Position numbers and translations under genes: made by a program. A DNA stretch of 37,929 nt from Actinomycetota bacterium. GTDB taxonomy: Bacteria > Actinomycetota > CADDZG01 > WHSQ01. Shown here piece by piece: positions 12,019 to 37,929 of the stretch. The stretch is taken from positions 1 to 37,929 of the forward strand of contig WHSV01000028.1 in assembly GCA_009379915.1 (NCBI GenBank). Reading direction: 5' to 3'. The notes under the pieces are model-generated. The model was not told where the DNA came from and did no database searches. It saw only the letters and a program-made list of their open reading frames with translations. Position 1 is the stretch's first letter. Each line of letters begins with the position of its first letter.

Positions 12019-12729
12019 TCAGCCGATCTCTTCGAGGTCGCTTCGAGCCTCGCGTCCATCGCAACGGATTCGTTCGAGGGCATCGGGACGAAGAATCCTC
12101 AACTTGCGACCTCGATAATCGACAACACCCTCTTGTTTGAACGCCTTTAACGTTCGGTTCGCGCTCTCGCGACACATCCCGGCAAGCCCGCCAAGATCGG
12201 CCTGAGGGAGAGGAACTTCGAGCTCGACTGCGCCGTTGCGCACGCAGCCAACGAGATCCGCGAGGTCGAGCAGCCGGCCCGCGAGGCGAGCGGCGAGCTC
12301 ACTGCCCGTCCGTTCGAGAGCCGTGTCGATGATCCAACGAGTCCGTTGAGCCAGGGCCTTCGCAAGTTCGACCCCAGCGGCCGGGTTGCTCTCGAGCAGC
12401 TGTGCGAAGAGATCCGCGCCAAAACCGAGGACACTCGTTCGTATGACCGCTACCGCGTCGAGAGGTTGGGGCCGACCGTCGAGGGCCGCGACGTCGCCGA
12501 TCACATCCCCCGCCACACCCAGGCACAAGATGGTTTCGCGTGCCTCCGCGTCGCGCGCCGTCATTTTGATGACGCCGGAGCAAACGAGATGAACCCGATC
12601 CGCGCGGTGTCCGGCCAGGTAGAGCCGTTCACCCGCCACGAGTCCTCTCGGAACGGCCCGGTCGACCAGCCGAGACCGATCTCGGGGACACAACGCATCG
12701 AGCACTGCCGAGGCTGGTAGGTGCGACAT
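12019..12729 (-). CDS. Crp/Fnr family transcriptional regulator
   Basis: A 236-residue regulator. Residues about 10-120 form a cyclic nucleotide-binding-like beta-roll (RLYLAGHRADRVHLVCSGVI … VAGDVIGDVAALDG). Residues 150-225 form the Crp-type winged helix, with recognition helix CRESANRTLKAF. The N-terminus has only one Cys (LCPRDR), so it lacks the 4-Cys iron-sulfur site of classical Fnr, and the ligand is unknown. The ATG has a strong GGAGG ribosome binding site. Longer versions of the frame run into the repeat region and are rejected. Its position among redox genes is suggestive only. Confidence 0.88.
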   Translation of the reverse strand: MSHLPASAVLDALCPRDRSRLVDRAVPRGLVAGERLYLAGHRADRVHLVCSGVIKMTARDAEARETILCLGVAGDVIGDVAALDGRPQPLDAVAVIRTSVLGFGADLFAQLLESNPAAGVELAKALAQRTRWIIDTALERTGSELAARLAGRLLDLADLVGCVRNGAVELEVPLPQADLGGLAGMCRESANRTLKAFKQEGVVDYRGRKLRILRPDALERIRCDGREARSDLEEIG

Positions 12730-12818: not shown

Positions 12819-12879
12819 TCCTCGGGTCCAAGCGTAAGAGACTTCGGCGAAATGTCCAGACCCAAACCGGGGCCGGGAG

Positions 12880-13125
12880 AAAACCGGCATCGAGACTGGC
12901 GAGTTGGTGGCCGGTGGGCTGGATCTGCCCGCTCCGGCCGGATTCTCGGGTCGGGCAGAGGCAAACCGGCATCGACGGGGGTGAGTTGGTGCAGGGAAGG
13001 CATGCGCCTGCCCGCTCCTGTTGTTCTCGGGCCTGGGAAAGGCAAAACCGGCATCGACGGGGGTGAGTTAGTGGGTGCTCGGGTAGATCTGCCCGCTCCG
13101 GGCGGGCAATTGGGTAGGCGTGGGC
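12880..13125 (+). repeat. Array A: three direct 82-bp repeats
   Basis: Three copies begin with (A)AAACCGGCATCGA at 12880, 12963 and 13044. The ACCGG cores start at 12883, 12965 and 13047, an exact 82-bp period. Each unit has a conserved head (AAACCGGCATCGACGGGGG, then TGAGTTGGTG) and a second conserved block (TCTGCCCGCTCC), with variable bases between. The first copy differs after ATCGA. Confidence 0.8.
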
Positions 13126-13130
13126 GCTCA

Positions 13131-13197
13131 CTCACCCGAGAGGGTGAGCACACGTCCGTAGCTTGGAACTCTCGACATTCAGCCACCGTTTCGGTGG
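13131..13197. repeat. Two perfect hairpins between the direct and inverted repeats
   Basis: CTCACCC-GAGA-GGGTGAG at 13131-13148 is a 7-bp stem with a GNRA-type tetraloop. CCACCG-TTT-CGGTGG at 13183-13197 is a 6-bp stem. Neither is followed by a T run. Together with the flanking repeats they fill the otherwise gene-free 12730-13462 interval. Confidence 0.5.
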
Positions 13198-13230
13198 GTT
13201 GAGGGTCGAACGTTCGCAGAATCCGCAATA

Positions 13231-13357
13231 GAGCGGGCACGAGAAGCCGAACAGCCGCCCACTTCCCCCTCCGGTGCTGGTTTGAGCCCGGCGGGACGAC
13301 GAGACCGGGCCCGAGAAGCCGAACGGCCGCCCACTTCCCCCGTCGATGCCCGGTTTT
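13231..13357 (-). repeat. Array A: two inverted 73-bp repeats
   Basis: On the minus strand two units begin AAAACCGGGCATCGACGGGGG (13357 downwards) and AAACCAGCACCGGAGGGGG (13283 downwards), 73 bp apart. They share a nearly identical continuation that on the plus strand reads GAGAAGCCGAACxGCCGCCC and ACTTCCCCC. The head matches the direct copies at 12880-13070 in opposite orientation. Confidence 0.75.
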
Positions 13358-13462
13358 CGTCCGGCGCGACGAGCATGGGCGGGCTCTCAATAATCGAAAA
13401 TCCGGGGAAGCCGGTTGCGTGCTGCATACAGTCTTTTAACGGCCTCGAAAGGAAAGGACGGC

Positions 13463-14122
13463 GTGGCAATCCAGCTGATCACCCGGGGATCGCTCAGGGA
13501 CGAGATTCTCGACCGGCTTCGCTCGCTCCTGGTCGAGGGCGATCTCCCGCCCGGAGCTCGGATCAACGAGTCGACCCTCTCGCGCGAACTCGGGATCAGC
13601 CGTACGCCCTTGCGCGAGGCCCTGTTGCTGCTTTCGGGAGAGGGCCTCATCGCGTGCGAGCCCGCACGCGGTTTCTTGGCCGCGCCGCTGACCGTCGATC
13701 GAGCGCGCGATGCCTTTCCCATCCTTGCTGCGCTCGAGGTCCTTGCACTTCGCAGCTCCAAGGGCGTCGCGCTTCATCGGTTGGACCAGTTGCGGAGCCT
13801 CCACTCGGAATACGAGTCGGCCCCGACGCTCGAGGCCGCTCGGGTAATCGACGAACGGTGGCATCGCGTGCTCATGTCGGGTTGCTCCAACGAATCGCTC
13901 AACGTTCAGCTCGAACGCCAGCGGGCGATCGAGCGCCGCTACTGGCTGGCTACCGCGGGAGTTGCCGGTCGGTGGCCTCAGCCCTCTTGGGTTTTCCAGC
14001 ACGCCGCCGTCATGGAGGCCGTCGACGACGGCGATACGGAGGCGGCCTGCGCTGCGCTCGAGCGTCATTGGGGCTCGTCGATGCGAGAGGCGTTGAGCTC
14101 GCTCGCCCGCAACGGCGGCTGA
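13463..14122 (+). CDS. GntR family (FadR subfamily) transcriptional regulator
   Basis: A 219-residue regulator. The N-terminal winged helix (residues 8-75) reads SLRDEILDRLRSLLVEGDLP … INESTLSRELGISRTPLREAL, the GntR signature. Residues 80-215 are the all-helical FCD ligand-binding domain, with histidines in ERWHRVLMSG and FQHAAVMEA that usually hold a metal for carboxylate effectors. The effector is unknown. The GTG at 13463 is preceded by GAAAGGA and starts the family domain properly; the frame open from 13415 is longer than needed. The gene lies 49 bp upstream of the TlpA gene and could be cotranscribed with it. Confidence 0.88.
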   Translation: MAIQLITRGSLRDEILDRLRSLLVEGDLPPGARINESTLSRELGISRTPLREALLLLSGEGLIACEPARGFLAAPLTVDRARDAFPILAALEVLALRSSKGVALHRLDQLRSLHSEYESAPTLEAARVIDERWHRVLMSGCSNESLNVQLERQRAIERRYWLATAGVAGRWPQPSWVFQHAAVMEAVDDGDTEAACAALERHWGSSMREALSSLARNGG

Positions 14123-22983: not shown

Positions 22984-23097
22984 TCGGCCCCCCGGACGGG
23001 ATCCGGCACCAACTTCGCATCACGGGATCGACTTGGAAGAGGACCGTTTTTTCGGGCCCCTCAGACTCACCGGTAAATCGCGGATGAACGAGCGCCA

Positions 23098-30076: not shown

Positions 30077-30299
30077 CCGGCCGGTAGGGGGCCGGGGGAC
30101 TTGTGGGGGGGGCCGGGTTGGGCGCGCCCGCTCTGGTCGGTCTGTGGTGGGCCAGAACCGGCAGCGAAGGGGGACTTGGGTGGGGCCGGATTGGGCGCGC
30201 CCCTCGAGTTGGTCTGTGGTGGGCCAGAACCGGCAGCGAAGGGGAAGGGGGTGGGGCCGGGTTGGGCGCGCCCGCTCCGGTCGGTCTGTGGAGGAATGG
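30077..30299 (+). repeat. Array B: three direct 72-bp repeats
   Basis: Copies centred on AGAACCGGCAGCGAAGGGG begin at 30155 and 30227, exactly 72 bp apart, and a more divergent copy precedes them (from about 30077). Each contains GGGCCGGxTTGGGCGCGCCC and GTCTGTGGTGGGCCAG. The head ACCGGCAGCGAAGGGGG and the later GCCCGCTC block correspond to those of the 82-bp units at 12.9 kb, so the arrays appear homologous. Confidence 0.75.
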
Positions 30300-30390
30300 C
30301 TTCGGTGAGCGGGGTTGAATCTCCGGAGAGTGATGGAGTGGCTGATCTGGCGGGACGGAGCCCGTCCCAGCTCGAACTCTGGTGAAATCT

Positions 30391-30440: not shown

Positions 30441-30521
30441 AGCGGCGCGCAGACCCACAGGAGCGGGAGGATCGGGCCCGGCCCCCGGCCCCCGTGATTC
30501 CTCCCTTAGATGCCGGGGTTT
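30441..30521 (-). repeat. Array B: inverted repeat copy
   Basis: On the minus strand, just after the M15 peptidase gene, the sequence starts AAACCCCGGCATCTAAGGG and continues to CGATCCTCCCGCTCCTG and GTGGGTCTGC. It shares the AAACC-GGCATC head and the CCCGCTCC block of the repeat family but points opposite to the three copies at 30077-30299. It is more diverged than the other copies. Confidence 0.5.
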
Positions 30522-30540
30522 GCCTTTGACTTTGCCTTGC

Positions 30541-37633: not shown

Positions 37634-37690
37634 ACCCGCCCCCCGGGCGCCCCGACCGGTTCGATGGAGATTAGGCACCGGAAACCGGCA

Positions 37691-37929
37691 CTAAGTATCC
37701 ATGGAACGGTCGACTTGGAAGAGCTCCCGGATTCCCAGCGCTTTTGTGACTGTACGGACGACATACGGCTCGTCTCGCACCACGTCTGAGACGTGGTCCA
37801 GGTAAATCGGATGACCCGTTTGCCCTCGCAGGAATGCGGCATTGTCCCGTCGCCGGCCGTCGTTGAAACGCTCACGAGAAGCGTGCCACTTTCGACCGTC
37901 CACCTCGATGATCAAGTTGTGAGCTTGGT
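37691..37929 (-). CDS. DUF559 endonuclease-like protein, 3' part (cut by window edge)
   Basis: The C-terminal 78 residues, open to the window edge. LIIEVDGRKWHASRERFNDG then RRRDNAAFL matches the DUF559 domain, a very-short-patch-repair-like endonuclease fold (…iEvDG..wH..r..f..Dr.Rdn.L...Gw.vlRftw.dv…). After FLRGQ the frame reads TGHPIYLDHV, but the next frame encodes RVIRFTW at exactly the family position; the original frame resumes in family register at DHVSDVV. A pair of compensating indels therefore seems to have scrambled about eight residues. It may be functional with an altered strand, or decaying. The 5' end lies outside the window. Confidence 0.65.
   Translation of the reverse strand, partial: QAHNLIIEVDGRKWHASRERFNDGRRRDNAAFLRGQTGHPIYLDHVSDVVRDEPYVVRTVTKALGIRELFQVDRSMDT

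Follow-up and report, generated by a model that had tools for sequence, protein, structure and literature searches.

An intergenic repeat array in an Acidimicrobiia genome and its possible relation to palindromes flanking AbiEi-EDxHD nuclease genes

Arrays and neighboring genes in the window

We analyzed a stretch of 37,929 nucleotides (the window) from an Acidimicrobiia draft genome of 3.39 Mb and 95% completeness. Judged by its HemA protein, the nearest named relatives belong to the Acidimicrobiia, at 42–45% identity. A Crp family gene and a GntR/FCD gene diverge from a gap that has no gene 3′ end inside it and contains array A (12876–13361), composed of 3 direct and 2 inverted units of 60–82 bp around 2 hairpins. 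Intrinsic-terminator-like sites and promoter-like sites were searched for in this gap, and none were found. A second array and a fragment of a nuclease gene were identified farther along the window. The features are as follows:

12019–12729, − strand: flanking Crp family regulator gene (Pfam HTH_Crp_2 and cNMP_binding; start at about 12729)
12876–12945, + strand: direct unit 1, with a degenerate head (profile match in own genome, E 9.5e-10)
12958–13028, + strand: direct unit 2 (profile match, E 2.2e-13)
13039–13106, + strand: direct unit 3, the best copy in the window (profile match, E 3.7e-17)
13122–13156, no strand assigned: central hairpin b (10 copies among loci examined; DNA folding z −2.6 for 13115–13160)
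13172–13210, no strand assigned: central hairpin a, TTCGACCCTCAACCCACCGAAACGGTGGCTGAATGTCGA on the − strand (15 own-genome copies; DNA folding z −3.9)
13229–13288, − strand: inner inverted unit (profile match, E 4.7e-13)
13297–13361, − strand: outer inverted unit (profile match, E 3.5e-14)
13463–14122, + strand: flanking GntR/FCD regulator gene (Pfam GntR and FCD; start at about 13463)
30106–30286, + strand: direct units of the second array (matches 30150–30215 and 30226–30286, E 4.9e-6 and 5.1e-7; period 72 bp)
30285–30330, no strand assigned: central palindrome of the second array (matches the palindromes bracketing the nuclease gene of contig C105, locus L167, at 84% over 45 nt, E 6.5e-7)
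30450–30524, − strand: inverted unit of the second array (profile match, E 6.8e-4)
37718–37921, − strand: AbiEi-DUF559 nuclease gene, C-terminal fragment ended by the contig edge (profile match, E 1.6e-9; translation)

The heads of the direct units begin at 12881, 12963, and 13045, which gives exactly the 82-bp period reported in the initial annotation, and the 2 opposite units that it had placed 73 bp apart are spaced 72–74 bp. The 2 stable hairpins described between the halves were recovered when the sequence was folded as DNA, and the divergent Crp/Fnr–GntR setting agreed with the Pfam domains and gene starts. The head AAACCGGCATCGACGGGGG, described as shared by all units, is common to them only approximately, with deviating forms in unit 1 (AAACCGGCATCGAGACTGG) and in the inner inverted unit (AAACCAGCACCGGAGGGGG). 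On inspection, the outer units give way gradually to degenerate partial copies; a target duplication was not seen. A CRISPR array was ruled out, as the annotation had also concluded, given units of 60–82 bp that drift and occur in both orientations.

In the second array, the central palindrome had a folding z of only −1.5 of its own, and the nuclease gene on C105 with which it shares this palindrome is intact. Just beyond the 3′ end of the window's nuclease fragment, at about 37682, we observed GAAACCGGCACTA. A 45-nt repeat that ends in CGACTTGGAAGAG has one copy in an intergenic gap (22997–23041) and another, 71% identical to it, at the 3′ end of the same fragment (37679–37723).

A polarized unit family and its central hairpins

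A dispersed family, which the initial annotation rightly allowed to be MITE-like or BIME-like, was found in the host's own genome. Here a search for the 18-mer head, allowing 3 mismatches, gave 110 matches versus 2 for a reversed control pattern, well beyond chance. A sequence profile recovered at least 138 units at E ≤ 0.01. On a map whose genes were called with a simple codon-usage gene finder, 142 units formed 81 clusters, and just 2 of the 81 touched a gene, weakly predicted. The clusters occupied tandem (35), convergent (20), and divergent (15) gaps or lay at contig edges (11). All 29 mixed-orientation clusters read plus then minus, with heads outward (p ~2e-9 under random order). The median distance from head to gene was 24.5 nt where the head faced a 3′ end (n = 62) versus 157 nt where it faced a 5′ end (n = 45; p 2e-12), with single gene ends possibly off because the genes come from the simple finder. 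Among single-orientation clusters in tandem gaps, orientation agreed with gene direction in 13 and disagreed in 9.

The conserved part of the unit is sequence, namely AAACCGGCATCGACGGGG followed by GAGTTGGTG and then GCCCGCTC. Across 50 units, the folding z-score averaged −0.01 and 0.00 for the two strands, RNAalifold returned no structure for the unit, and no Rfam family matched it, leaving the structured regulatory RNA suggested earlier unsupported for the unit. The exact head was at background level in 60 relatives, the unit profile gave 0–2 marginal matches per genome in 23 relatives of the class, and a search for the exact head in 84,980 species genomes plus viral contigs returned no match. 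Of the copies that the initial annotation proposed to look for, many intergenic ones were thus found in the own genome, whereas the exact family is absent from relatives, though an analogous family exists.

This analogous family was reached through 2 marginal unit-profile matches in a genome of the same taxonomic family (G006), whose arrays have the head AAAACCAAAGGCGGTAGCGACGGGG, units of about 74 bp, and a conserved 50-bp tail. One such array encloses an intact gene (L161:14486–15400), located between inverted tails and inverted units, with a product matching AbiEi_4 and DUF559 in Pfam. The units themselves accompany a nuclease gene in G006 only. Matches to the nuclease-bearing unit-plus-tail were confined to about 40 kb of one G006 contig (C19, L161–L162) around the gene, which suggests local spread of these arrays.

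The cluster centers carry strong hairpins of several families, named a (about 13 copies at the loci examined), b (about 10), c (about 20), and d (about 22); array A holds families a and b. A covariance model of hairpin a, searched across the class, gave no strong matches outside the own genome. The compensatory changes that were to accompany further copies were almost lacking within the hairpin families, and the argument about palindromes consequently rests on different genes having different palindromes.

Nuclease genes and their flanking palindromes

Genes encoding AbiEi_4-DUF559 proteins were present in 69 of the 297 Actinomycetota genomes sampled. The own genome has 8 intact DUF559 genes and several decayed ones, and several of these genes have a palindrome on both sides. 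Comparison of the own-genome nuclease flanks with the array loci gave 34 matches, not mutually independent, of which 30 fell on the tail side of the unit, a zone making up 14% of the searched DNA. The palindrome of the nuclease gene on C133 belongs to hairpin family c, present in about 12 arrays, and that of a decayed nuclease gene on C22 matches 3 arrays.

We compared upstream with downstream flanks, scoring a match at ≥20. Within the class, the 2 flanks matched for 22 of 66 AbiEi-DUF559 genes versus 3 of 158 controls (p 1e-10; 4 of 159 controls had matched, one of them itself a nuclease gene and removed), and elsewhere in the phylum for 16 of 52 nuclease genes versus 1 of 69 controls (p 3e-6). 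When all flanks were compared against all, the gene's own downstream flank was the best match for 41 of 117 upstream flanks, with 1 expected. About two-thirds of the nuclease genes had no clear matching flanks at the sensitivity used. Matched flanks form good folds, with a mean z of −3.1 upstream and −2.5 downstream. Downstream copies began within 10 nt of the stop codon in 23 of 36 cases, many palindromes lying 0–4 nt from it. Palindromes vary from gene to gene, each nuclease gene having its own type, across many genera. Direct pairs around the genes are about as frequent as inverted pairs, and the occurrence of both speaks against a simple transposon bounded by terminal inverted repeats. Solo copies of nuclease-flanking palindromes also occur in the own genome. 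In G002, a genome of another genus with an intact palindrome-flanked nuclease gene, further solo copies were found. The ones inspected are located outside predicted genes, in the gaps between them, and most form double hairpins in tandem.

Several further observations concern these genes. A CRP-like TGTGA-N6-TCACA sequence (≤1 mismatch) lies just upstream of or at the start of 8 of 8 intact own-genome nuclease genes (L163–L170), compared with 3 of 300 control genes and 0 of 59 nuclease genes from the other genomes in the set; the Crp family gene adjoining array A may encode the regulator. At L224, L257, and L261, from several genera, a palindrome is followed by a conserved 10–16-nt tail, which recurs on either side of the gene without a change of direction. 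Two genomes from another family of the class (G021 and G016) had 24 and 18 nuclease-profile matches, many apparently broken, in keeping with fast turnover.

An AlphaFold2 model of the AbiEi-DUF559 protein (74-sequence alignment) had a mean pLDDT of 93.8. Its N-terminal part matches 6y8q, the structure of an AbiEi antitoxin (E 6e-7), and its C-terminal part the homing endonuclease I-Bth0305I (3r3p, E 8e-4, target TM 0.79), the latter match being obtained by sequence as well. Conserved residues among the 74 members include E203 (70), D235 (74), H253 (73), and D262 (73). As modeled, the protein joins a DNA-binding module of AbiEi type to a catalytic domain of the EDxHD homing-endonuclease type. 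In their own promoters, both AbiEi and Rv2827c bind paired inverted repeats of 23 bp (PMC7319586). The target on which I-Bth0305I forms a dimer spans nearly 60 bp (PMC3943268), and DUF559 proteins are described as Vsr-like nucleases (PMC12907096). Ten neighbors of 7 own-genome nuclease genes were tested; none was an AbiEii toxin, and all were unrelated ordinary genes.

The central hairpins, not the units, connect array A to an enzyme. On C115, a decayed AbiEi-like fragment (E 5e-4) has one copy of hairpin a at a distance of 65 bp and a partial copy on its other side; this weakly scoring fragment is the sole own-genome nuclease link of hairpins a and b, an intact nuclease gene for them being absent from the own draft genome. 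The other link comes from G002, whose nuclease-flanking palindromes were made into a profile. In own DNA (331 kb searched), this profile matched hairpins a and b alone, with a best E of 0.004 and a weak match to hairpin a at 13174–13203 of the window (E 0.017). Its one match in the 406 kb searched from other genomes lies in a nuclease-gene flanking region. The 2 links of hairpin a are individually weak.

Origin of array A: proposed mechanism and alternatives

On balance, we lean toward array A being a non-autonomous, REP/BIME-like intergenic element served by AbiEi-EDxHD nucleases, an arrangement that would resemble REP-RAYT without the Y1 transposase. Short tandem units in 2 converging halves enclose 1 or 2 palindromes, which would be the part that the nuclease recognizes. 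The AbiEi module would bind the palindrome, possibly in dimeric form or with the hairpin extruded, and the EDxHD domain would nick or cut there. Recombinational repair could then copy palindromes, with or without the gene, to other intergenic sites, and repair between similar copies could duplicate units in tandem and inverted order. The unit family, its polarity, its placement away from genes, the association of palindromes with nuclease genes, and the protein architecture were observed here; binding, cleavage, and mobility are what we infer. The role of the head-bearing 60–82-bp units, which may be extra binding sites or repair by-products, is the least certain part of this explanation.

REP/REPIN-RAYT systems combine high-copy intergenic palindromes in tandem and inverted clusters with a single nuclease gene between 2 copies and solo copies elsewhere (PMC2817692). 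The arrays described here are like REP/BIME and REPIN with RAYT (TnpA_REP) in their high-copy intergenic palindromes and their tandem and inverted clusters in both orientations, and also in having a single nuclease gene bracketed by 2 copies, with solo copies elsewhere. In contrast to REP-RAYT, the enzyme is an AbiEi-EDxHD fusion rather than a Y1 HUH transposase, the hairpins measure 35–60 bp and lack a GTAG head, the flank copies are direct about as often as inverted whereas RAYT genes have inverted copies, and there are extra 60–82-bp units that do not fold. Y1_Tnp (PF01797) had 0 matches in the 95% complete own draft, the search being positive in 5 of 14 controls, and a GTAG/CGTC-type head next to the palindrome was absent from hairpin alignments A3–A5. 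The system would work like REP-RAYT, but with the Y1 transposase absent and the GTAG-type head missing it is no member of that group, and a RAYT was rejected on the same Y1_Tnp result.

Other known systems share single components. The EDxHD homing endonuclease I-Bth0305I has the same modeled catalytic fold and conserved E, D, H, and D residues, but here there is no intron or intein context, an AbiEi module is fused on, and palindromes bracket the gene. Likeness to the AbiE type IV toxin-antitoxin lies in the N-terminal fold, which matches AbiEi, an inverted-repeat binder; unlike that system, a nuclease domain is fused on and no AbiEii was found among the 10 neighbors tested, and a type IV toxin-antitoxin was rejected for want of a toxin partner among them. 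Vsr-like DUF559 proteins such as Caulobacter VsrA have the DUF559/PD-(D/E)XK nuclease domain in common, but VsrA is presented as a putative nuclease of mismatch repair with a tie to cytosine methylation rather than to palindromes (PMC12907096). MITEs of DDE transposons are likewise short, non-autonomous, dispersed elements with inverted ends; the arrays differ in their fuzzy outer ends, tandem end units, lack of a target duplication on inspection, and lack of an identified matching DDE transposase.

We consider it unlikely that the nuclease genes are passengers, with arrays spreading by another route and AbiEi-DUF559 genes inserting in or near palindromes targeted by their nuclease. Insertion of IS elements into REPs is known, the palindrome pairs occur in both orientations, and a mover other than the RAYT-like Y1 transposase, which was not found, is possible in a draft that is 95% complete. 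However, across many genera the palindrome type is particular to each nuclease gene, the palindromes often lie 0–4 nt from the stop codon, and the cognate palindrome has solo copies in the own genome and in G002. Solo copies, here in unrelated intergenic gaps, also speak against the palindromes being operator or regulatory sites of AbiEi-like proteins (for autoregulation or genome-wide) without mobility, as do the matching copy directly downstream of the stop codon, the conserved nuclease active site, and the lack of AbiEii toxin among the 10 neighbors tested; the binding of AbiEi and Rv2827c to 23-bp inverted-repeat pairs in their own promoters favors such a role (PMC7319586), which we judge quite unlikely overall.

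The placement of the units, with all but 2 of 81 clusters avoiding predicted genes and heads that face a gene 3′ end at a median of 24.5 nt past the stop codon, would suit ordinary BIME-like elements with a role at the ends of transcripts, such as terminating transcription or stabilizing mRNA. We consider this very unlikely: the divergent gap of array A contains neither a gene 3′ end nor an intrinsic-terminator-like site, single-orientation clusters in tandem gaps ignore gene direction (13 agree, 9 disagree), and the units do not fold. The central hairpins are stable, as a structured regulatory RNA family, the earlier option, would have them, but the units have a folding z of 0 and no match in Rfam, the hairpin families show little covariation, and the array A gap lacks a promoter-like site; we regard that option as most improbable.

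The spread of REP-like palindromes is poorly understood, and to our knowledge only Y1 transposases (RAYTs) have been tied to them. The open-access literature yielded no report of DUF559/AbiEi genes with palindromic repeats, a scope that is no proof of novelty, and the titles and abstracts of open-access papers naming DUF559 draw no tie to repeats. More tentatively, and as something possible rather than probable, the palindromes may form an undescribed mobile class across Actinomycetota, in which a nuclease fusing an inverted-repeat-binding AbiEi module to an EDxHD domain copies its own flanking palindromes to other places in the genome; REP-like sequences would then have arisen a second time with an unrelated enzyme, and array A would be a non-autonomous derivative. 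If so, a second, unrelated nuclease family would be bracketed by its own palindromes, and this kind of selfish repeat would have evolved more than once. AbiEi_4-DUF559 genes would gain a testable function, the binding and cutting of their own flanking palindromes, and the repeat-rich intergenic DNA of these bacteria would be explained.
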